Shown here piece after piece: positions 6,671-19,853 of a stretch of DNA of 20,216 nt; the first letter of the stretch is position 1; every line of letters starts with the position of its first letter. This stretch comes from a virus: the IMG/VR virus record IMGVR_UViG_3300030328_005209, positions 1 to 20,216 of that record. The stretch is one strand, 5' to 3'. The position numbers were made by a program, and so were the translations under genes. Under the pieces are notes generated by a model that searched no databases, was not told the origin of the DNA, and was given only the letters and a program-made list of their open reading frames with translations.

Positions 6671-8092
6671 TTAATACGGCGGAATAAGATTTGTTACCAT
6701 TAAAGCGTTACTTTCTTGCTGTAAATAGTAACCGTCATCATCGCCGCCCTCCAAGAGGACAAAATCTTCCACCTTCTCCATACCTAAAACCCCACTTATA
6801 AAAAGCCCGTGAGTTTGATCATCTGGATTTATCTCCACATTAAAAGAAGCGCTAAAGGTTTTGTTGGATCCTATAGCGCTATTATAACCAAAATTATTAC
6901 ATTTAGCCCCTTTGAACGTATACCTTAAAGCTTCGTCCTCTTTATGTATTGGAATAGCTCCAGCATTAATTGGGGCTAGGATACTTTTTTGACATTCATT
7001 AGGTGGGTCAACTTTTATTGTGAAATCGTACCCGCTATTTAATGATACTAAGTCTACTAATGAACCACTATTGCCCGACTCTACTATCCCCTCAATTGAT
7101 AAATTTGCAAAAACTGGAGAGTTTGGAACAGTATCTACTGGAAACTTATACCCCATATTGGTAAGAGGCTCACGGTTTAAATCAATCGAAATATCGTAAT
7201 TTTGTATGTGAAGCTTATTAAAATCTACCCCCAGACCAGAAAAAGAATCAGTTGTAATAGTAATATCTCCGGGTCGAAGCGCTGAGTATCCTTCTTCGGC
7301 TAAAACCCTCGGAATCACTACATCCTTGTCAGGGCTTATAGTCCCGCTTTTAGTCTCTATTCCCGGGGCTTGAAAACCACTGCCGCTCATGGTAAAAGTA
7401 GTATTATAGCAAGTATAATTAACTGATGCGCTAGGTAATCCCCCTACCGCTCCTCTAGTGTTGTAAGATCTTAAATACGAGTTACCGAAACCTATAACGT
7501 GATAATCGGGAGAATTTGGATCTATTGACTGTTGAGTGTCGGGATTAGTGAAGTCTTCTTTGTAGTAAAATTTATCAATATCGTTCCCTTCTTGGTTCAC
7601 CACCACATATATATTTTTACAATCTCTATATTCACTTAAAGGAAAATCTTGCCAAGGTCTTTTAAGTTTTTTGTTTTTGTTTTTCTCAAAAAAACCCGAT
7701 AACAAAGAGGTCTCTTCATTATTTTGGTAATACGATTCTCCACTGTATGGATAATTGAATAAAGGATAGTTTACATTTAAACCTAATCGGGCCTCATTTT
7801 TAGTGCCACATAAAAGGTAATTGAAACTTAAATCAACAGTAGGGTAATTTATAATCGGCCTATCTACTATCCCGCGTTGATTCAGTTGCAAAACGTCAGT
7901 ATGGGGAATGTTAATATTGTAACTTACCGACTGAATACGGTCTATAGGATTAAGCCTATTGATTTTCTGAACTAAATCTGAATAGCTATTTGTTGGATTA
8001 GGGCTATCGTAATTATAAAAGTTATAATCAGTTTCTGGAGCAGGTCCTACAAACAAGGCCTGACAATTGTAAATTACTCTTGGCTGGGCCAT
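6671..8092 (-). CDS. Tail-tube-like virion structural protein with duplicated domain
   Basis: This 473-residue protein has no signal peptide. Two segments have the same design. Residues about 51-95 (RIQSVSYNINIPHTDVLQLN, then RGIVDRP, then PTVDLSF) and about 295-340 (LHIQNYDISIDLNREPLTNM, then GYKFPVDT, then ANLSIEG) each give a beta strand, a polar turn with D/N-R-x-P or H-T-D, a G-containing loop and another beta strand. From memory this pattern occurs in tail-tube or tube-like proteins of environmental phages. The protein would then be a two-domain tube or tail-completion subunit. It starts with TAATG overlapping the portal stop by one base and has a strong GGAG site, so it is probably co-transcribed with the portal. 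It could instead be a capsid decoration or neck protein. Confidence 0.55.
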   Translation of the reverse strand: MAQPRVIYNCQALFVGPAPETDYNFYNYDSPNPTNSYSDLVQKINRLNPIDRIQSVSYNINIPHTDVLQLNQRGIVDRPIINYPTVDLSFNYLLCGTKNEARLGLNVNYPLFNYPYSGESYYQNNEETSLLSGFFEKNKNKKLKRPWQDFPLSEYRDCKNIYVVVNQEGNDIDKFYYKEDFTNPDTQQSIDPNSPDYHVIGFGNSYLRSYNTRGAVGGLPSASVNYTCYNTTFTMSGSGFQAPGIETKSGTISPDKDVVIPRVLAEEGYSALRPGDITITTDSFSGLGVDFNKLHIQNYDISIDLNREPLTNMGYKFPVDTVPNSPVFANLSIEGIVESGNSGSLVDLVSLNSGYDFTIKVDPPNECQKSILAPINAGAIPIHKEDEALRYTFKGAKCNNFGYNSAIGSNKTFSASFNVEINPDDQTHGLFISGVLGMEKVEDFVLLEGGDDDGYYLQQESNALMVTNLIPPY

Positions 8093-9966
8093 TACTTTTC
8101 TCCTTCATAAATACTTGAATATAATATCCCCGCTAAAAAATCATCAACCTGATGCTCTAGTGCAACGTCTTGAATTTTTTTAACTCTTTCGTGGTCTCTG
8201 TCAGTAGGTTCGGCCGCATACCTTCCTGCTTTCGCTAGCCAGTTAGGAGGATCTTCATTAGCTATGACGATGTTAGTAATCTCCCTAGCTACTTCTTTCT
8301 GTTGCTTACTTAACCTTTTCCTGTTATGAATCTTCCTCAGAGATGCTTCCACTTCTAAGTTAAGTTTGTCCGAAAGGTTTAAGTTTTCTTGAATCTTAGA
8401 TAAACTAAAATTTAAAGTCGCCTTAGTGCCTATTGGAGTTTTTGTGTCGGTTTCTTTGGGGGCGGCAACCCCGGCAGGTCTTCCATTTACTTTAGGAGCT
8501 TTTGCACCTCCTATCACGGGCTCGTAAAGACCTTGGTTTCTAAGCTCTTTAAATCTTTTTTGCGATTCTACTGACTCTTCCGGCGTTGGAAAACGGCCTG
8601 ATTCTATAGCCTGCATGCCTTCCTCTGCTGTAAGCACCCCTAATTCAATCAAGCGGCTGTAAATACGAGAGTAAACAGAGGTGTCTCTCAAATCTACATC
8701 TTCAAAATGAGCAGTTGGATAGTTTTTAAATCCTAACTCCTTTGAAATACGTCTTATTTCAGGCATTAGAAAATTCTCTAGAAATACTCGACGCCCCTGT
8801 TTAAGCCTCTCCATAAATACTTGGACTTTAATACTAGTATTAGCGAACTTCTCATCACTAAGAAGAATGTTATTAAGGCCCATTTGTATATCTTGGTTAA
8901 CTACGTCGTACTTTTTGGGGTCAAGAATATTTCCTATATCGGGAATTACAAACTTAGCATCTGTAGTATAATCTGAAATTAATACGCGCCCTACAGACTC
9001 ATTCTCAAAAAGCTTCTGCATGGCCATTAGGTTTCTCTGGTTTACTCCACCTTTGGAGGGCTCAGTTCCCATTGTAACTAACAGTATGGCTTGATTAGTT
9101 GTTCGAGCTACCGCCATGTCCATTTGTTTCATTTCTTGTTTCCAGTTAATATCTTCTAAAACTGGGAAGCCCATGGGAACCGCGAATGGTTCGTAGTCTT
9201 GCTTTTTATAAAAAACTGCAGAAAGTTTATCTGTTTCTAGAGGAATTATTATAGCTGACATTCCAGCTTTTTTAGTCTCTTGGATTAACTTTTTAGTTTC
9301 TTCTGGTAAATTTTCATAAACTTCCTTGTCTTCTTCAGTTTGAGGATGACGTAATCTTTGTAGTTCGTAGTCAGTAACAACTTTATAGTAAACTCCAGTG
9401 CTAAAAGAAATACTTCCCTGAAGCTGTATGTCAGAGGGATTAAGGATTATATACTTCGCGGGTATATTTAAATCTTCCGCCGCTTGGCTTATGCCAAAAG
9501 TTTGGTTGATTTTAAAAACATCAGATTTATCCATTTTGGCGTTAAACCGGTAAATGAAGACATTTCCTGATCGGTAATACTCTCTAAAGAAACGGCTTTG
9601 TAAATCATCTATATTAATTTTAGTGAAAAGAGTCTCAAAGAACTCTCTCGATTTTTTGCTTCCACCTGTATAATAAAGATCGCTGATAGAGAATTCCGTC
9701 ATCAAGTCTATAGTGTTTCTAAAGACTGAAAAGTTATAATATGCTTTTTGGCAGAGGATTATTGTATCTCTGATGTCTATGTTAGAATTATTTGAGACTC
9801 CAGCGGAATACTTGAATGGGATCATGCCATTACTTATATTCCTAAACCTGTCCGTCCGCGGTATGTCTGCGGCAGCGTTACGGCGAGTCCTCGTCTCAGC
9901 AGCCTTAGCTTCATGCATAGCCATTAATGGTTCCGCACCTTGTTCCGTTTTCTTCCTTACAGCCAT
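8092..9966 (-). CDS. Portal protein
   Basis: This 624-residue protein would form the dodecameric ring at the head vertex through which DNA is packaged by the terminase and ejected. Features fitting a portal are an N-terminal basic, Ala-rich region, then D-I-R-D and SVFRNTIDLMTEF (about residues 65-95), where portals commonly have the start of the clip and wing fold. A middle segment has AVARTTNQAILLV. A long helical C-terminal half includes ERLKQGRRVFLENFLMPEI and LIELGVLTAEEGMQAIESG, the latter very typical of portals near the crown. It lies directly downstream of the large terminase, the usual order. The ATG at 9966 is preceded by an AGTGTA motif that overlaps the terminase stop codon. Confidence 0.85.
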   Translation of the reverse strand: MAVRKKTEQGAEPLMAMHEAKAAETRTRRNAAADIPRTDRFRNISNGMIPFKYSAGVSNNSNIDIRDTIILCQKAYYNFSVFRNTIDLMTEFSISDLYYTGGSKKSREFFETLFTKINIDDLQSRFFREYYRSGNVFIYRFNAKMDKSDVFKINQTFGISQAAEDLNIPAKYIILNPSDIQLQGSISFSTGVYYKVVTDYELQRLRHPQTEEDKEVYENLPEETKKLIQETKKAGMSAIIIPLETDKLSAVFYKKQDYEPFAVPMGFPVLEDINWKQEMKQMDMAVARTTNQAILLVTMGTEPSKGGVNQRNLMAMQKLFENESVGRVLISDYTTDAKFVIPDIGNILDPKKYDVVNQDIQMGLNNILLSDEKFANTSIKVQVFMERLKQGRRVFLENFLMPEIRRISKELGFKNYPTAHFEDVDLRDTSVYSRIYSRLIELGVLTAEEGMQAIESGRFPTPEESVESQKRFKELRNQGLYEPVIGGAKAPKVNGRPAGVAAPKETDTKTPIGTKATLNFSLSKIQENLNLSDKLNLEVEASLRKIHNRKRLSKQQKEVAREITNIVIANEDPPNWLAKAGRYAAEPTDRDHERVKKIQDVALEHQVDDFLAGILYSSIYEGEK

Positions 9967-9987: not shown

Positions 9988-11819
9988 TAACCAAGCATTC
10001 TGGGAGTAAATGTATGGTTAATTTGTTGTACTTCTGTATTTTTAAGATCATTATAGGCTTTAACGGCCCAATTTCCTAACATTAAAGTGGTGTAATTATC
10101 CTTACGAGCACGATTAGCCGAAGTACTTCTTTTAAGGTGCTGGGGCAGGTCAAAGGTTTGAATTCCTTTGGCTGTAGTCTTAACTTCAACTAACGCACAT
10201 TGCTTTCTGGTTTGATAAATAATGTCATCTTGGAACTCTATCAAATCACCTTTATTTTCGTAAGGCATTAGTTTCATAGGAACCGCTTGAGCTGATACTT
10301 TATCGAAAAAGCTTCCGCACGCAGCAGTACGCGAAGCGAACCATATCCTCTTATGGTCAATGGAAGCTTGTAAATATTCATTAGCCTCCCGGAGAAAAGT
10401 GCTAGAAAATAACTGTTTGAAGCAGATCATATTTTCTTTCACGTTATATTGAGTCTTTGCTTTGAGTAACATTTGTTGATAATCGTTACCAGTTTTATCA
10501 CTATTAAAATCAAAAAACTTTAAATTAATGCGTGAATCCCGAAACAGTTCCGATTCATTAGCTCCATCAATAAACTGATATCCCGCGTTATCTATAATTA
10601 AGAGAACGATATTAAAGCTAGTAACTAGATAATGAAGATATTTGATATGATCTTTTAAATCCCCTCCCGCTACTGCATAAGCATGCACTAAGGTAGATTC
10701 ATTACCTTTTTCTTCATCAAGTTCTAAAACCGACATTGCAAAATAATCGGAACTTGGACTGTTACTAAAACTAGGGTCAATAGCTAATATATATTCTTTA
10801 TCTGGCTCCCCTTTAACTAAGGTATGCTGTTTCTCCCCATCTGGTATAGTGCAGTCATGCATTTTCTTAGCACTAAAATAACTATCACTTCCATCGGTAA
10901 ACTGAGCACAATATTCTCGCTGAAAAGAGGAATTAGAAGAGCCTCCAGACTGAGCTTCTTCTATAACTGTACTGTCTATCATATCAGAAGGAATAGAGTC
11001 AAAAGCCATCTGTGATATAAAATAATTAGATTGTTGGATGTCTTCCGAATAGATATTATTCATCCATTCTTTGTACGTTTTAAAAAGGTTTTCAAAACTG
11101 AAGCTGGCCGAAGAGAGCGCTATCATTTTAGAGTTGTTCTCGAAAACAATTCGGTCTTTTTCTTGCATCTGGCCTTTTTGAATAAGGTCATCTTCCATTT
11201 CTCTTATTTTTATCCTCTCAGCCATATCTTGGGGAGCCACCAAGAAAGGCATAAGAACTGTCTTGATGGTATCCTCAGGCAGGAGTAAAAACTCATCAAG
11301 CACTAGAATGTTTGCGCGGAAACCACGAATCTTTTCTCCGCTTAGAGGGATAGCGGTGATAGTCCCTTCGTTTATCTTCCATTCGAATTGATCGTTACGT
11401 TTAGATTTAGCTCCGAAAGCATGAGCTAGCATTTGAGCTTCTTTAGATTCGACTATCTTCTCCAAGTTATTAAAAATAAATCGAGCTGTACGAAAAGTAG
11501 GTCCAGCAATTAAGATTTTTGTACGAGGCTCAAAAATACATTGAAGAAAACAATAAACAGCCGCTATAAAACTTTTGCCACAACCGCGGCCCCAAACACA
11601 CATACTAAAGTTTCGGTTAAAAAAAGCTTTGAGAGTTATTTCTTGATATAAAGCTAATTTAATTCCCGAAAGCAATTCTGTAGTAAAACCTAAATTAGAC
11701 CGCATGAATTTGGCCAAAGTTATTTTTGCTTGGCGGTCAGGGAGTTCTCCTTTTAAATCAAGAAAGTCTTCATTTAAATTTGGTAACGGTTTTTTATATT
11801 TTTCAGGACAATACCACAT
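9987..11819 (-). CDS. Terminase large subunit (DNA-packaging ATPase/nuclease)
   Basis: This 610-residue protein has both halves of a large terminase. The ATPase domain has a Walker A loop GRGCGKS (residues about 77-83) and a Walker B ILVLDEF with D175 and E176. A coupling-type SSASFSF segment follows. The C-terminal RNase H-like nuclease shows acidic clusters at AIDPSFSN (about 345), LLIIDNAG (about 405) and the late IEFQDDIIYQ (about 533), matching the three metal-binding acidic positions of the family. The protein docks on the portal, pumps DNA into the prohead using ATP, and cuts the concatemer. The length is close to T4-type terminases. The ATG follows the upstream TAA with no gap (TAAATG), so expression depends on the upstream operon. 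No residues appear to be missing. Confidence 0.95.
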   Translation of the reverse strand: MWYCPEKYKKPLPNLNEDFLDLKGELPDRQAKITLAKFMRSNLGFTTELLSGIKLALYQEITLKAFFNRNFSMCVWGRGCGKSFIAAVYCFLQCIFEPRTKILIAGPTFRTARFIFNNLEKIVESKEAQMLAHAFGAKSKRNDQFEWKINEGTITAIPLSGEKIRGFRANILVLDEFLLLPEDTIKTVLMPFLVAPQDMAERIKIREMEDDLIQKGQMQEKDRIVFENNSKMIALSSASFSFENLFKTYKEWMNNIYSEDIQQSNYFISQMAFDSIPSDMIDSTVIEEAQSGGSSNSSFQREYCAQFTDGSDSYFSAKKMHDCTIPDGEKQHTLVKGEPDKEYILAIDPSFSNSPSSDYFAMSVLELDEEKGNESTLVHAYAVAGGDLKDHIKYLHYLVTSFNIVLLIIDNAGYQFIDGANESELFRDSRINLKFFDFNSDKTGNDYQQMLLKAKTQYNVKENMICFKQLFSSTFLREANEYLQASIDHKRIWFASRTAACGSFFDKVSAQAVPMKLMPYENKGDLIEFQDDIIYQTRKQCALVEVKTTAKGIQTFDLPQHLKRSTSANRARKDNYTTLMLGNWAVKAYNDLKNTEVQQINHTFTPRMLG

Positions 11820-12758
11820 TTATAATAATTTTAAATCATACGCCAACTGTAAGTCATACTTCTCTTTCAAAGCATCGGATAATAAAAGTTTTTTTACTAT
11901 CCTTACGCACTCCTTCCTCCCATTTACAAAAAGAAATTGAATGTCTGGGAACTCTTGAATCAAGTCTCTAACATTATGAAAAATAAAATCTGGGGTAACC
12001 CGAGTATTCTTTTTATAAACATGCTTGAGCCTGTTGAAGGCTAAACAGTCAGAAAGATTCCTTTCCACTAAAACTACCATGTAAGCTTTTTCTTCCGCCG
12101 CTCTATTTATTTCATTTTTAAATCTTTCAAGACCAGAGCTTAGAGTACCTATGAGATCAGGGACAGATTTTCTTTCTATGTAGGTGTTCTGAGTTTTTTC
12201 TTTATCGTTTAAACAGTAATCCCCAAATTTTAACCCCTTCACTTCAGTAGGAAAATCATCTATATCTAGAGGATTTTGTTCTCGCGAATCTATATAAATA
12301 AGATGATCTTTTGAAAAAGTTTCTTTATAATCTTTTTTTATAGGCGTTTTTTTAAATTTGTTTTTGTACCCTATGTCTTCACATAGCTTATAATAATCAC
12401 CAAATAATTCTTGATAAAAAGGTATGGGAGGTATCGGCAACGTTCTCAATTCAACTTCACTGGGGGAATAAACTAAGCCTTTTTCTTCCTTTCTTTTCAG
12501 CAATAAATCTTTACAATATTTCTGAGCCTCAAAAATGGGAATGTTTTTTAACCAAGTTTTTAAATTCCTTTTATTATTAAAGTCAGAAGAAAAATACTGT
12601 TCTTTATTTTTGAACTTGATTAATTCATTAGTGTGTTTATCTCTACGAGGGTAATACTTATGATAATACTGGACAATAGATAATTTATGGGCTTTGATAT
12701 GAAGGTGGAGCCCTCTATCTTTATCAAATTCTTTTCCGCATTCTTGACACTTAACCAT
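11820..12758 (-). CDS. C2H2 zinc-finger plus ERCC4-type nuclease
   Basis: This 312-residue protein has two recognisable parts. A classic C2H2 finger sits at the extreme N-terminus: C4, C7, H20, H24, giving C-x2-C-x12-H-x3-H. An ERCC4/XPF-type nuclease core occupies about residues 150-235: D157-S-R159-E160, G179-D180, E195-R196-K197 followed by D201, R212-F-x-x-E216, then V231-E232. This is the GDx(n)ERKx3D signature, and all catalytic positions look intact. ERCC4 enzymes cut branched or flapped DNA. The gene sits directly before the large terminase (TAA then ATG), so a role in resolving replication or recombination branches before packaging is plausible, comparable to a packaging-linked resolvase. 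Destruction of host DNA is another option. It overlaps the upstream gene by 8 nt and has a GAAGAGG ribosome-binding site. Confidence 0.85.
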   Translation of the reverse strand: MVKCQECGKEFDKDRGLHLHIKAHKLSIVQYYHKYYPRRDKHTNELIKFKNKEQYFSSDFNNKRNLKTWLKNIPIFEAQKYCKDLLLKRKEEKGLVYSPSEVELRTLPIPPIPFYQELFGDYYKLCEDIGYKNKFKKTPIKKDYKETFSKDHLIYIDSREQNPLDIDDFPTEVKGLKFGDYCLNDKEKTQNTYIERKSVPDLIGTLSSGLERFKNEINRAAEEKAYMVVLVERNLSDCLAFNRLKHVYKKNTRVTPDFIFHNVRDLIQEFPDIQFLFVNGRKECVRIVKKLLLSDALKEKYDLQLAYDLKLL

Positions 12759-13860
12759 TAAGAACCTCTTCTTCGCTTATGCCCATAATACGAGATTTAA
12801 TATCCTCCATAGAGCTTAGTCTTTCTATTTCAGCAGATATGTTTTTCTTTCTTATTTCGGCTATTTTAATCATCTTAGTTCTAGACTCTTCGTCTTTCCA
12901 AAGTTCCACGAGGTTTAAAATGGAGGCCGATTCTTGAAGAACTTTACTCATTCGCTGGCTTCTCTTTTCTTTGAGCTCGTTAAGGAGCTTTGTTTGACGA
13001 TTAACGCACTGGTTATACTCAGTTTGCGCCGTGTTGATAGCTTCCACTAAGCTCATTGCCATTCTCCGACCTTCGGTATCTTCAGCGTTTTGGTCAAGGA
13101 GCTGCTGCAATCTTTCTACGCGTCTTTGGATATTAGAAGCTATTACTACTTCTGCGGATAAAACTATATACTGATCTACCTCCTCTTGAGAAAGGTCAGA
13201 TTTATCCCATGTGTAACGAACAAAACTACTTTCGAAAAGCTCACGATCCGTTTCAACAGAGTAAGTGCTGATTTGATGAAGAAAGCGAAATGTATGCATG
13301 TATCCAATAAGGGTAGATAAATTCTTTTTTATTTTTGTTGTAATTTTTTCTTTATCGATTCCGTTATGAACATACTTATTAACTCGAACTACTGCCCGAG
13401 ATTCGGACTTAGGAGGAGCATATCCTCCCTCAACTGCTACCTCATCATTAGTTTCAGAATATTTAACTTGATTGGGTATACTGTTTATAAATTCTGCGAC
13501 AACTTTATACCTTAAATCCAAAGCAGAAATTTTATTATCATCAAATATCAACCTAGTCATATCCATGGGTTTCATGGCCCCACAATTATTAGAGATATAT
13601 TCTTTTTGGTCGTCGGTAAGTTGTACTTTCTCTTTGGGGTAATATTTGTGAGAGACTTTAGCTTCAAGACTTTTTTCTGCTAAGAACTTTTTAACAGCCC
13701 TGCCATATTTGCTTCTTCCGTCTTTCATCTCTTCGGGGATGTCAGAAAAAACTAGTTCTATCAATTCTTTTAAATGAGGGGCGCCATCATTACGTTTGTT
13801 CCACTCCTCCAAGATAGCTAACTGCTGGTCTTCATTTAATTCTATATTTTTCTCTTTCAT
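12751..13860 (-). CDS. HTH-like and coiled-coil protein, candidate small terminase
   Basis: I do not recognise this 369-residue protein with certainty. The N-terminal 125 residues contain two similar helical units, one starting ELNEDQQLAILEEW and the other QLTDDQKEYISNNC. Each continues into a segment like LIELVFSD or TRLIFDDN and then a helix ending in FLAEKS or FINSI, like tandem helix-turn-helix modules. A central basic region follows. The C-terminal half (about 230-360) is strongly charged and predicted to form long coiled coils. DNA-binding N-terminus plus oligomerising coil, in the packaging operon two genes before the large terminase, fits a small terminase subunit, although it is long for one. 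A transcription co-factor is an alternative. It overlaps the sigma-like gene by 4 nt and the nuclease gene by 8 nt. Confidence 0.5.
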   Translation of the reverse strand: MKEKNIELNEDQQLAILEEWNKRNDGAPHLKELIELVFSDIPEEMKDGRSKYGRAVKKFLAEKSLEAKVSHKYYPKEKVQLTDDQKEYISNNCGAMKPMDMTRLIFDDNKISALDLRYKVVAEFINSIPNQVKYSETNDEVAVEGGYAPPKSESRAVVRVNKYVHNGIDKEKITTKIKKNLSTLIGYMHTFRFLHQISTYSVETDRELFESSFVRYTWDKSDLSQEEVDQYIVLSAEVVIASNIQRRVERLQQLLDQNAEDTEGRRMAMSLVEAINTAQTEYNQCVNRQTKLLNELKEKRSQRMSKVLQESASILNLVELWKDEESRTKMIKIAEIRKKNISAEIERLSSMEDIKSRIMGISEEEVLNG

Positions 13861-16024: not shown

Positions 16025-16036
16025 TCATTTTACACT
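16025..16036 (-). promoter_or_regulatory. AGTGTA-type motif before phoH
   Basis: The minus strand reads AGTGTAAAATGA, with 11 nt between AGTGTA and the ATG at 16019. Two alternative ATGs fall within or next to the motif's downstream half. It is the left arm of the head-to-head pair 16031-16048. Confidence 0.6.
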
Positions 16037-16048
16037 CAAAAAAGTGTA
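16031..16048. repeat. Palindromic divergent promoter-like element
   Basis: TACACTCAAAAAAGTGTA has perfect 6-bp inverted arms with a 6-bp spacer. It lies between the divergent phoH (-) and MscS-like (+) genes. Each arm is the AGTGTA core of one promoter-like motif. A looser version of the same arrangement (TACACTCCTGCGTGTA) occurs at 17867-17882. Confidence 0.65.
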
Positions 16049-16054
16049 ATATAT
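16043..16054 (+). promoter_or_regulatory. AGTGTA-type motif before the MscS-like gene
   Basis: The plus strand reads AGTGTAATATAT, 17 nt (from AGTGTA) before the ATG at 16066. A purine-rich AAAAGAAAG between them can serve as a weak ribosome-binding site. Confidence 0.6.
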
Positions 16055-16065
16055 AAAAGAAAGTT

Positions 16066-16572
16066 ATGAACGAGATTTCAGAGATAGCTCCCGAAATGGT
16101 AAACTTAGCTACAAATCTAACTAATTTGTCTCCGGGGCAAATAAATAAAGAAAATGTAGAGGGTTTTTTAGAAAGTTTAATTGGCGAGTATGGATGGCTA
16201 TTACTGATAGCTGTCATAACTATAATGGCAAAAGATATGATTATGAATTTTGCTCAAGGATTATTAGTTTTTATGGGGAATGATTTTAATAATGATGACA
16301 TTATTTATATTTCGGGACGTCAAGCCCGTATAGTTCGCGTAGGAATTCGTAACACGGTTTTTTATATGCTTGATAGAAAAACTAAGATGTTGGTCCCGAA
16401 CGAACAATTAAAACAGCTTACTATTGAAAAAACTTTACCTAAAAACGGTGGAGCTCCCTATCTACCTAAAGGATGCGATCCAAACTTTGTGGGAACAGAA
16501 GAAGTTCCTATAGAGCCTCCTCCCATGCAGGTAGAAGTGGTAAGCAAGCCCACTTCTAGAAAAAAATCTTAA
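16066..16572 (+). CDS. Minimal MscS-like membrane protein
   Basis: This 168-residue protein has one clear membrane segment (about 42-57, YGWLLLIAVITIMAK). An amphipathic stretch follows (DMIMNFAQGLLVFMGNDF, about 57-74), then a small beta domain (about 76-122). That stretch has the pattern of the MscS pore helix and beta domain: short helix with G-x-L, a D/N-D-x-I/V-x-I-x-G strand (NDDIIYISG), G-x-V-x-x-I-like RIVRVGIRNT, an aromatic strand, and the hallmark V-P-N (110-112) before Q-L. The C-terminal 45 residues are Pro- and Lys-rich and probably disordered. MscS channels are heptamers that open under membrane tension. This version lacks the extra membrane helices and the large cytoplasmic cage. 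It could form a small channel, alter host osmotic behaviour or contribute to lysis; function is inferred. It is followed after 2 nt by a lipoprotein gene. Confidence 0.65.
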   Translation: MNEISEIAPEMVNLATNLTNLSPGQINKENVEGFLESLIGEYGWLLLIAVITIMAKDMIMNFAQGLLVFMGNDFNNDDIIYISGRQARIVRVGIRNTVFYMLDRKTKMLVPNEQLKQLTIEKTLPKNGGAPYLPKGCDPNFVGTEEVPIEPPPMQVEVVSKPTSRKKS

Positions 16573-16574
16573 CA

Positions 16575-16805
16575 ATGAAAAAAATGTTTTTATTAACTCT
16601 CCTACTTTCAGGATGTATCTCTCCAACTAGCGTAGACGAAAAAGGAAGACTTGAAAAAGTTAGAATAGCGGTCCCCGCCTTTTTTCAAATAGAAATGGAC
16701 TATTACAAAGATAAAGAAAATTTTCCTAAAGGAACGGTTAAAACTAACACTCCACCACAAATAAATAATATATATCCAAAATTAATGGAAATGACCCCAA
16801 AATAA
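16575..16805 (+). CDS. Small lipoprotein
   Basis: This 76-residue protein has a short type II signal peptide: MKKMF, a hydrophobic stretch and the lipobox L-S-G-C with the lipidated cysteine at residue 14. The mature part is about 62 residues, polar, with a Pro-containing C-terminus (TNTPPQINN, then MTPK). After cleavage it would be anchored in a membrane, probably the outer membrane as residue 15 is Ile rather than Asp; the sorting rule is established for E. coli only. It starts 2 nt after the MscS-like stop, so both are probably co-expressed. Small Pro-containing phage lipoproteins are often outer-membrane spanins, but no partner inner-membrane spanin overlaps it, so that reading is tentative. 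Superinfection exclusion is another option. Confidence 0.6.
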   Translation: MKKMFLLTLLLSGCISPTSVDEKGRLEKVRIAVPAFFQIEMDYYKDKENFPKGTVKTNTPPQINNIYPKLMEMTPK

Positions 16806-17464: not shown

Positions 17465-17851
17465 TTATTCTCCGGGTTTATTACCGTCAATAACCTTGTC
17501 TCGTTTATTTTGGAATTCTTTTTTTATCTCTTCCATCCTTTTCTTCATTTCTTCTTTATGCTTCTTCCTTAATTCATGCATTTCCTTATGAAGCTCCTTC
17601 ATCTTTTCCCGAAGCTCATTTAACTCCTCGTTATCTATCCTCTTACCTTTCCAGTGATGTTTTCGTTTTTTGCTTTCGAAATGTTTTTTTCTTTTTTCTG
17701 CCGCAGCTTTAAATCTTTCTTTTATTTTATCTTTGTCGATTTTTTCGGGACGAGGTTTGCCTTTGTGTTTACTGGGTTTGGCTTCGGCGGTGGTTAACAC
17801 TGATGCGATGATTGCTACCAGTCCGTATTTAAGGATGTTTTTTACCATCAT
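17465..17851 (-). CDS. Secreted, highly charged coiled-coil protein
   Basis: This 128-residue protein has a clear signal peptide: MMVKN, hydrophobic residues 10-21, and a probable signal peptidase I site A-E-A before K25. The mature protein is very rich in Lys, Glu, His and Arg, with a long charged helix (about 73-118, repeated K-E-L-H-K-E-M type heptads) likely to form a coiled coil. An ATG at 17848 is an alternative start. A periplasmic location in a Gram-negative host is expected. The fold recalls periplasmic spanin segments, but there is no retained membrane anchor. I do not recognise a family. The gene has its own AGTGTA element 15 nt upstream and shares the bidirectional terminator at 17418-17447. 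Confidence 0.65.
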   Translation of the reverse strand: MMVKNILKYGLVAIIASVLTTAEAKPSKHKGKPRPEKIDKDKIKERFKAAAEKRKKHFESKKRKHHWKGKRIDNEELNELREKMKELHKEMHELRKKHKEEMKKRMEEIKKEFQNKRDKVIDGNKPGE

Positions 17852-17891: not shown

Positions 17892-18113
17892 ATGAAGATT
17901 ACTAAAAAGAAAATCATCATAGCTTTGGCTATCGTAGCCGCATCTGTTTCCCTTGCTTTTGTTTTTGGTCATAAGAAGGAAGAGATACATGAAAAGATAG
18001 CCGATAAGGTCACAGAAAAGGCCACTGAGGCCATTGTAGATAAGGTAGTGGACGAAGCCGCCGATAAAGCAAAAGAAAAGCTCACAGACGAAATTTCAAA
18101 GATATTGAAGTGA
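17892..18113 (+). CDS. Single-TM protein with amphipathic helical repeats
   Basis: This 73-residue protein has a basic N-terminus (MKITKKK), one hydrophobic helix (about 8-25) and a charged tail. The tail repeats a pattern of about 11 residues (EKIADKVTEKA, DKVVDEAADKA, then KEKLTDE), giving an amphipathic helix. The short basic N-terminus favours an inner-membrane anchor or uncleaved signal with the tail outside the cytoplasm. Such tails can lie on a membrane surface or pair as coiled coils. I recognise no family; a holin-like, spanin-like or superinfection-exclusion role is possible. The ATG follows its motif by 9 nt without a ribosome-binding site. The stop overlaps the next gene's GTG start (GTGA), so both are probably made together. 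Confidence 0.6.
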   Translation: MKITKKKIIIALAIVAASVSLAFVFGHKKEEIHEKIADKVTEKATEAIVDKVVDEAADKAKEKLTDEISKILK

Positions 18114-18454
18114 ACCAGTTTCACACATACCTTAAGTATCTAAGGGCGAGAAAATACGACAGCATTGCAAAACTCGCTAGGTTGCTTAAGGTGGATTATC
18201 AAATGTGGCGTAAATTAGAAAGAGGAATAAACCCTCCCCCACGAAAATCCCTACTTAGAAGATTCTGTATCCTCACAGGGACAGTCCAATATGAAGAGAA
18301 TCAATTATTCGCCTTAGCTAGAAGATGGGAGCCTCACCCTGACACAAATACTACAAGACATAATTTGTATCACAAAGGATTAGACCCAAGTTGGATGGAG
18401 GCTATTATAAAAGAAAACACTCCTGACTATCCTCATAAATATTGGAAAAACTAA
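18110..18454 (+). CDS. Small HTH DNA-binding protein (Cro/XRE-like)
   Basis: This 114-residue protein starts with GTG in a GTGA overlap with the preceding gene; no better ATG exists before the HTH. Residues about 5-52 (YLKYLRARKYDSIAKLARLL, then KVDYQMWRKLERG, then RKSLLRRFCILTG) have the arrangement of an XRE/Cro domain: S-I-A-x-L-A-x-x-L-x-V, a recognition-helix segment Y-x-x-W-x-K-x-E-R-G, then a helix ending L-x-G. The C-terminal half is aromatic and His-rich without a known motif. A role as a transcription regulator of phage genes is likely. The inverted repeats around the AGTGTA elements are possible targets, but nothing links them directly. It converges on the next minus-strand gene with a 4-nt overlap of stops. 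Confidence 0.65.
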   Translation: MNQFHTYLKYLRARKYDSIAKLARLLKVDYQMWRKLERGINPPPRKSLLRRFCILTGTVQYEENQLFALARRWEPHPDTNTTRHNLYHKGLDPSWMEAIIKENTPDYPHKYWKN

Positions 18455-19179
18455 GCTGAAGGATATTCTGGGATGTTATCTTCGTGGTATATTTTAGATC
18501 TTAACGGAGAATGCTTTTCAGTTTCTTTTTTATCTTCTTCCGGATAATGGTTATAAAAAAAATAAGGGCTATTACCATAAGAGCGATCAATATCTTCTGA
18601 AGTCATTTCTTTGTCATAGATTTTAACTCTAGGAGGTTTTTCCTTATCGTACGGAACAATAAAATCAGGATTGTGCCAACGCAAAAGATTATTGGGAGGT
18701 ATGGCATAGTTTCCATCATCCATTTCCAGAAAGTGATAACATTTTGAATCTTGGTCGTTAGCGTATCCAATATTGAGCTCATTAAGGTCCCCCTCGTAAT
18801 CATCAATAGTAAATACATACTTACCAGAACGCCATACTCTGTCGCGACAGAATACGTCCACGCGACGGTTTTGCAAAAAACCGAATGTTGTAACTGCGAT
18901 ATCATTATCTTGGCAATCCCATGTTTGCAATAGTGATAATCGCTTCTGCTCATCTTCCGATAAAATGTCATAGTCCTCTTTATGACAAAAGGCCGAAATA
19001 GGCATCTGCCAAAAAATCGCCCCAAAGCACGATTGGAAATGAAAGTGCATCGGGCGATTGATCATTGATTTTACACCAAATATGTACCCTTCTGTCAAGC
19101 CTGAGCTTTCGGGGCCAAATATATACGAGTTCCTAATATAACATCCGATGTATGGGGTATTAGCGTTTAATTGAGCCAT
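18451..19179 (-). CDS. Conserved-looking phage hypothetical protein
   Basis: This 242-residue soluble protein has no signal peptide or membrane helix. The N-terminal part (about 28-65) has GYIFGVKSMINRPMHFHFQS then GAIFWQMPISAFC. The middle (about 86-135) has a W-D-C motif and VDVFCRDRVWRSGKYVFTID followed by D-Y-E-G-D. The C-terminal part has NYAIPPNNLLRWHNPDF. From memory, closely similar blocks (an F-W-x-x-P-I-x-A-x-C stretch, a W-x-x-G-x-Y-x-F-T-x-D strand and a P-N-N-x-x-x-W motif) recur in hypothetical proteins of marine phages. I cannot name a function. It diverges from the TM/coiled-coil gene at 19216. The last 40 residues are charged and probably disordered. Confidence 0.6.
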   Translation of the reverse strand: MAQLNANTPYIGCYIRNSYIFGPESSGLTEGYIFGVKSMINRPMHFHFQSCFGAIFWQMPISAFCHKEDYDILSEDEQKRLSLLQTWDCQDNDIAVTTFGFLQNRRVDVFCRDRVWRSGKYVFTIDDYEGDLNELNIGYANDQDSKCYHFLEMDDGNYAIPPNNLLRWHNPDFIVPYDKEKPPRVKIYDKEMTSEDIDRSYGNSPYFFYNHYPEEDKKETEKHSPLRSKIYHEDNIPEYPSA

Positions 19180-19217: not shown

Positions 19218-19542
19218 GTCAGAGACAAATAAAAATAAAAAAATTAGTTTCACGGACTTGGACACATTTTTGAAGATAGCCCCGATGATTGGTTTAGCGG
19301 TATTAGCGTATTTACAAACACTTTTTCCCAGTAAAGTAGAATTCGATAAGCTGGAGCAGCATTTAATTCAAATGGATAAAAAAATTACTGAGATGACTGT
19401 TCTTCAAAAAGCTATAACCTCGAATACTTCTGACATCAAAATGATAGACAATAGAATGAGAATTTTAGAATTAGAGGTAGCTAAACATAATGCACAGTCT
19501 GCTAGTATACCTAAAAACAGACAAGGGTCAGGAGTAAGATGA
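19216..19542 (+). CDS. Single-TM coiled-coil protein (spanin/holin-like candidate)
   Basis: From ATG 19216 this is 108 residues; the open frame extends to a TTG at 19171, but that part overlaps the divergent gene and its promoter region. A polar, Lys-rich N-terminus of about 18 residues is followed by one hydrophobic helix (about 20-36, LKIAPMIGLAVLAYLQTLF). Then comes a predicted coiled coil (about 40-92, FDKLEQHLIQMDKKI and RMRILELEVAK). This N-in, C-out layout with a periplasmic coil resembles inner-membrane spanins and phage lysis accessory proteins, though the N-terminal tail is longer than usual. The gene ends in an ATGA overlap with the exported HMA gene, so the two are probably translationally coupled. 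Confidence 0.55.
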   Translation: MSETNKNKKISFTDLDTFLKIAPMIGLAVLAYLQTLFPSKVEFDKLEQHLIQMDKKITEMTVLQKAITSNTSDIKMIDNRMRILELEVAKHNAQSASIPKNRQGSGVR

Positions 19543-19853
19543 TTAAATTAATTTTACCTCTTTTATTTAGTTTAAGTTTGTATGCAGAGCCAAACTTTGA
19601 TCCTGACGTAGAAATAAAGATAAAGGGACTAGTATGTTCCAGTTGTGCTATTGGAGTAAAAAGAGGATTAGATAAAACTAAATTAGTTAAGAAGGTTAAA
19701 TTTGATACAAAAAAACAATTATGTACAGTAGAGTACATAAGTATAGAGATTCATCCCAGTCAAATTAGAAAAATTGTAAAAGATGCGGGATATGAAGTTA
19801 CTTCTATAAAATGGCTTAAAGATAAAAAACCAAATAGATATAACAAGCCATGA
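19539..19853 (+). CDS. Exported HMA-domain metal-binding protein
   Basis: This 104-residue protein has an N-terminal signal peptide (MIKLILPLLFSLSLYA, probable cleavage after A16). A single heavy-metal-associated domain (about 24-90) follows: strand V-E-I-K-I-K, the metal loop G-L-V-C33-S-S-C36-A, a helix, strand KKVKFDTKK, strand L-C-T-V-E-Y, helix IHPSQIRKIVK and the A-G-Y (83-85) that typically ends the domain. Both metal-binding cysteines are present. HMA proteins such as MerP and CopZ carry Cu(I), Hg(II) or Zn(II); MerP is periplasmic like this one. A phage-coded exported version is unusual. It might bind copper in the host envelope or serve a thiol-linked role. A strong ribosome-binding site (AGGAG) precedes the ATG at 19539. 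The 3' end overlaps a 35-codon Cys4 ORF (ATGA). Confidence 0.8.
   Translation: MIKLILPLLFSLSLYAEPNFDPDVEIKIKGLVCSSCAIGVKRGLDKTKLVKKVKFDTKKQLCTVEYISIEIHPSQIRKIVKDAGYEVTSIKWLKDKKPNRYNKP

Follow-up and report, generated by a model that had tools for sequence, protein, structure and literature searches.

The window, a 20,216-nucleotide stretch of viral DNA (IMG/VR record IMGVR_UViG_3300030328_005209), encodes a phage protein that is homologous to MscS-family channels and retains a single membrane helix, a TM3b-like helix and the MscS beta domain. The gene for this protein, called mini-MscS here, occupies positions 16066..16572 (+), starts with ATG and encodes 168 aa, as given in the preliminary description. 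It is identified by a PF00924 match above the cut-off, an hhalign alignment to cellular MscS, MscS fold matches and purifying selection. On this analysis, mini-MscS appears to be best read as a stripped-down channel, for which TcMscS (PMC12334622) and microsporidian MscS2 (PMC11262690) are precedents. The protein probably forms a homo-oligomeric minimal MscS-type pore.

Residues 57-120 matched Pfam PF00924 (MscS beta domain) at 27.5 bits, above the curated threshold of 20.2 (E 3.5e-6), and 7 of 7 related records tested also passed the cut-off. The profile search proposed as a check in the preliminary description thus returned an MscS-family match rather than no hit. Cellular MscS was represented by 16 proteins, namely EcMscS plus 15 encoded in genomes of the order Flavobacteriales. 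Comparison with this set by hhalign placed residues 49-121 colinear with EcMscS 105-176, a stretch that spans TM3b and the beta domain (E 9e-7, probability 91%). The cellular MscS HMM scored 73/73 distinct phage homologs at 16.6-38.9 bits. The top of 5,000 shuffles reached only 8.1 bits, which indicates that the resemblance to MscS is not due to chance. Chance resemblance is ruled out by the Pfam cut-off, the profile comparison and this shuffle control, and the MscS homology claimed earlier stands. The features of MscS superfamily membership found in mini-MscS are the PF00924 profile, TM3b directly before the beta domain, and PN after strand 4.

Structure prediction agrees with the sequence comparisons. 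AlphaFold2 run with 48 sequences gave a mean pLDDT of 65.6 and a pTM of 0.36, with beta-domain blocks at ~63-81 and an uncertain TM part and inter-domain angle; a run with 20 close sequences was worse (pLDDT 46) and uninformative. The predicted strands (79-82, 85-92, 96-101, 106-111 and 120-124) follow the order of the MscS beta domain. Foldseek against the PDB returned MscS-family channels at ranks 1-48 with moderate E-values, from 4e-4 upward. VIA-align matched residues 37-129 of the model to the stretch that runs from TM3a to the beta domain in MscS, MSL10 and FLYC1, with Z 6-8, near the Z 5.5-6.5 reached by unrelated small beta folds. The model therefore has the MscS beta-domain fold with moderate absolute scores, and because unrelated folds score so closely this backs the sequence evidence but is insufficient alone.

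The protein divides into five parts. Residues 1-41 (16066..16188, +) form an acidic N-terminal tail, predicted to be non-cytoplasmic from K+R and D+E counts in 69 homologs. In the AlphaFold2 model an amphipathic helix starts at residue 28 of this tail, just ahead of the membrane helix. The single membrane helix, residues 42-55 (16189..16230, +), lies at the MscS TM3a position by hydropathy, column conservation and fold comparison. Its sequence, YGWLLLIAVITIMA, is the sole hydrophobic segment of the protein; A/G49 and I53 are conserved and positions 50-51 vary among the 69 homologs. At ~14 residues the stretch is short, and the Gly/Ala packing pattern seen in EcMscS TM3a is missing from it. Residues 56-73 (16231..16284, +) make up a TM3b-like amphipathic helix that aligns to EcMscS from Q112-G113-S-L-S-N117 onward, with the motif K56-D57...N61-F62...G65 in the window protein and K/R-D/E...N...G in the family. 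The MscS beta domain, residues 74-124 (16285..16437, +), is defined by GR-AR-RVG and VPN motifs, the model strands and alignment A5 (48 rows). The VPN motif (V110-P111-N112 in the window protein) is invariant in 48/48 rows, and the majority of the 28 invariant columns fall within the beta domain. The C-terminal tail, residues 125-168 (16438..16569, +), carries a conserved YL motif followed by a variable, mostly basic end in the same alignment. The arrangement of one TM, a pore-helix segment and a beta domain with V-P-N proposed earlier was thus found at residues 42-55, 56-73 and 74-124.

TM1, TM2 and the C-terminal alpha/beta cage are all missing from mini-MscS, which is too short and has one hydrophobic segment. 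A second lineage (L347-L359), with ~40-50% identity, has just ~20 residues ahead of the membrane helix, making TM1 and TM2 impossible there. These data bear out the earlier statement that the paddle helices and cage are absent. Mini-MscS therefore lacks the TM1-TM2 tension paddle and C-terminal cage of a canonical MscS and has the composition of a miniature MscS of the TcMscS/MscS2 type, TM3 plus beta domain without a cage. Separately, two Flavobacteriales-order genomes contain 181-residue MscS-like ORFs without a cage (L309 1475-2017 and L310 1432-1974) that align to EcMscS ~27-175.

Charge distribution was used to predict topology. The 69 homologs have on average 1.3 K+R against 5.5 D+E in the N tail, and 8.9 basic against 5.7 acidic residues in the beta-domain stretch. 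The positive-inside rule therefore predicts an N-out/C-in orientation for mini-MscS, the same as MscS TM3.

IMG/VR was scanned with the window protein, alignments and divergent members. The scan yielded ~73 distinct homologs (69 distinct proteins in the column analysis, 73 in the shuffle control), with identity down to 40-50% and length down to ~137 aa. Their carriers are uncultured, mostly marine bacteriophages, so the presence in related phages that was to be checked is confirmed and the phage origin of the gene is upheld. No homolog was detected among 50,697 phage records (INPHARED) or in any PHROG. The lone match in the genome collection was a contig in a Flavobacteriales MAG that shares the phage gene order and therefore reads as phage sequence; its placement in a Flavobacteriales bin could be a binning error. 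Recent capture of a host MscS was rejected on the same contig and on the beta domains of the sampled cellular MscS, which are at most 30.5% identical. An E. coli MscS query of phage records gave matches that look like bacterial sequence, judged by names and lengths only, and searches of viral contigs for canonical MscS genes with cellular MscS gave nothing usable. PADLOC returned no credible match.

Substitution rates across 17 genes gave pN/pS of 0.11 for the beta domain, 0.26 for the TM, 0.46 for the N tail and 0.39 for the C tail; the ratios are rough because synonymous sites are near saturation in distant pairs. The closest pair (L003), at dS 0.55, is identical in amino acids across the beta domain. 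Purifying selection on this domain is strong. A non-coding or spurious ORF is ruled out by pN/pS and by conservation in the ~73 homologs.

Mini-MscS has a recurrent gene neighborhood. With PhoH as an independent query, 63/69 loci that extend 200 bp or more upstream have mini-MscS adjoining on the opposite strand, close relatives being included among the 69, so that not all loci are independent. The remaining six (L258, L259, L265, L268, L275 and L276) have no adjoining mini-MscS and none elsewhere on those fragments, which indicates that the gene is not strictly essential. A DUF6582-like gene lies beside PhoH in its place in L258, L265 and L268. An inverted repeat, TTACACTCAAAAAAGTGTAA (16030..16049; 0 expected in shuffles), lies between the divergent PhoH and mini-MscS genes, and many related loci have a less strict version of the motif at the same position. 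This repeat is a possible shared operator or promoter element.

A gene for a small lipoprotein of 76 aa (16575-16805, +; lipobox MKKMFLLTLLLSGC, LSGC) begins 2 bp past the mini-MscS stop codon. Iterated HMM searches defined this abutting family, which has 48 distinct forms. Adequate flank was available for 49 distinct mini-MscS cores; in these, the lipoprotein gene is directly downstream in 30, directly upstream in 8, within ~2 kb in 2 and not found in 9. The pairing noted earlier in the window therefore recurs in related loci (38/49). One clade swaps the gene order yet keeps the adjacency, which argues for a functional link between the two proteins. The E. coli Lol rule links an Asp after the lipidated Cys to lipoprotein sorting. 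This Asp is absent in all lipoproteins inspected, and outer-membrane sorting is therefore predicted by that rule.

Several other genes of these loci were annotated. A secreted Lys/Glu-rich protein (17465-17851, -) is conserved adjoining mini-MscS in many relatives. The protein at 17892-18113 (+) has a single TM and a charged helical periplasmic part, with a weak match to Rz-like spanin PHROGs; its counterpart of similar sequence in L040 and L125 reads as a lipoprotein. The gene at 18451-19179 (-) matches phrog_3704, annotated 'ferredoxin' (E 5e-40), and is conserved in related loci. The product of 19539-19853 (+) is secreted, contains an HMA heavy-metal domain (PF00403, E 1.1e-9) and has a CSSC motif. 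In L012, an ORF at 11169-12761 (-) fuses ankyrin repeats, above Pfam cut-offs, to a class III cyclase PF00211-like region just under the cut-off (20.9 against 21.9 bits), and L125 has a similar ORF at 7327-8877.

The data above show the gene, its homology and architecture, its constraint and its gene pairing. We infer the topology, ring, pore, gating and physiological role of mini-MscS as follows. The acidic N tail would lie outside the cytoplasm, and the short membrane helix would replace the pore-lining TM3a. The TM3b-like helix and then a cytoplasmic beta domain would follow. By homology, the subunits would most likely assemble in the host cell's inner membrane into a homo-oligomeric, probably heptameric ring, whose TM3/beta-domain pore would be the sole permeation path. 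The usual partner would be the small, probably outer-membrane lipoprotein from the adjacent gene. The likeliest role would be that of a phage-made pressure-relief or ion-leak valve through which the phage controls the host membrane as infection proceeds. Possible physiological roles include turgor relief, pinholin-like lysis timing and a non-conducting scaffold; the lysis-timing and osmotic-protection factors of the preliminary description would likewise be candidates. A tentative model, with a little over one chance in three, is that a widespread phage lineage has its own regulated membrane pore, in which a single-helix MscS-type ring acts together with a dedicated lipoprotein. Taken alone, the specific valve role is somewhat doubtful.

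Several observations count against a homo-oligomeric pore. The helix is short (~14 residues) without the EcMscS TM3a Gly/Ala pattern, the gene is missing beside PhoH in 6/69 loci, and the TM part of the model is uncertain (pTM 0.36). EcMscS without its C-terminal domains did not insert in E. coli membranes, as cited in PMC11262690. With its lipoprotein partner, the protein could also be a non-conducting scaffold, namely a membrane-anchored beta-domain ring acting with the lipoprotein in, for example, superinfection exclusion or envelope remodelling with no ion passage. Heavier constraint on the beta domain than on the membrane helix, the missing TM3a packing pattern and the lipoprotein adjoining in both gene orders (38/49 cases) fit such a scaffold. 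The K/R-D/E...N...G motif of TM3b and A/G49 and I53 preserve an MscS-like helix face, however, and in 9 homologs with adequate flank no lipoprotein was found; we regard the scaffold as unlikely. A ring that depolarizes the inner membrane late and triggers lysis, as a pinholin does, with the lipoprotein and the single-TM coiled-coil protein being spanin-like, is decidedly unlikely. Lipoprotein, mini-MscS and the TM-plus-helix protein are contiguous in L135, and the 17892-18113 protein matches Rz-like spanin PHROGs (E 0.006), but this match is weak and could reflect coiled-coil composition. To our knowledge, holins normally lack a soluble ring-forming domain. The Phage_lysozyme family, the sole endolysin family searched, was not found in 7 related, incomplete records. 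In favor of the pinholin reading, phage 21 pinholin forms heptameric pores of ~2 nm according to PMC9636201.

Two further alternatives concern the partners of the protein. Mini-MscS shares the ring-forming MscS beta-domain fold, which would suit the earlier proposal that it is a dominant-negative subunit of host MscS heptamers, into which it would insert. Its beta domain is nearly invariant across phages and shares at most 30.5% identity with any of the 16 sampled cellular MscS, making insertion unlikely; the comparison covers these 16 proteins and is not decisive. The proposal is not supported and is very improbable. Mini-MscS could also be an i-spanin whose o-spanin is the lipoprotein, with fold reuse behind the MscS similarity, since an inner-membrane gene beside a small lipoprotein gene is the two-component spanin layout (PMC9636201). 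The adjacency is present, but the charge pattern predicts N-out/C-in and hence a cytoplasmic C-terminal domain, while the i-spanin domain is periplasmic, and the mini-MscS domain is beta in the model, not coiled coil. The i-spanin reading is extremely improbable.

If the minimal MscS-type pore is real, mini-MscS would be among the smallest MscS-type channels in the bacterial world and part of a previously unrecognized phage membrane-control module. MscS-type channels are usually studied with paddle helices and a cytoplasmic cage. A natural, strongly constrained TM3 plus beta domain could tell which parts are needed for the pore and which for tension sensing. The mini-MscS-lipoprotein pair, absent from the cultured-phage records searched, points to host-envelope action in uncultured phages. 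In the literature searched, no report described a conserved single-helix MscS family that spans a broad phage lineage and has a lipoprotein partner; already known are miniature MscS in eukaryotic parasites, MscS-like genes in giant viruses and one phage annotation (PANV1 gp51).

Escherichia coli and Helicobacter pylori MscS share TM3b, the beta domain, the PN motif, a colinear profile and the TM3 orientation with mini-MscS; they differ in having TM1, TM2 and the C-terminal cage. Beta domains of cellular MscS and mini-MscS are ~20-30% identical in the comparisons made. Phage 21 pinholin S21-68, unlike mini-MscS, has no beta domain. It is likewise a small phage inner-membrane protein that is said to form heptameric pores (PMC9636201), an analogy only and dependent on the mini-MscS ring model. 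PANV1 gp51 of a Paraglaciecola sea-ice phage is also a phage protein with an HHpred match to MscS (6RLD) and a transmembrane helix predicted at only ~0.6 probability; it is known by published annotation only and was compared by its description (PMC9239159). Microsporidian MscS2 (e.g. from Nematocida displodere) is reduced like mini-MscS to a TM3-like helix and beta domain with space for about one membrane pass, and its truncated construct is a homo-heptamer, so that TM3-beta alone can form such a ring (PMC11262690). It differs in being eukaryotic and in having no lipoprotein partner described in the sections consulted; its channel activity is putative too. TcMscS of Trypanosoma cruzi (165 aa) resembles mini-MscS in its TM3 and beta domain, short membrane helices, lack of an alpha/beta cage, and unresolved C-terminal tail (PMC12334622). 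TcMscS is eukaryotic, has an N helix and TM2, and is a demonstrated tension-gated heptamer, a state that is putative for mini-MscS; TcMscS shows that a heptamer of TM2-TM3-beta subunits can respond to tension by gating even when the cage is missing (PMC12334622).
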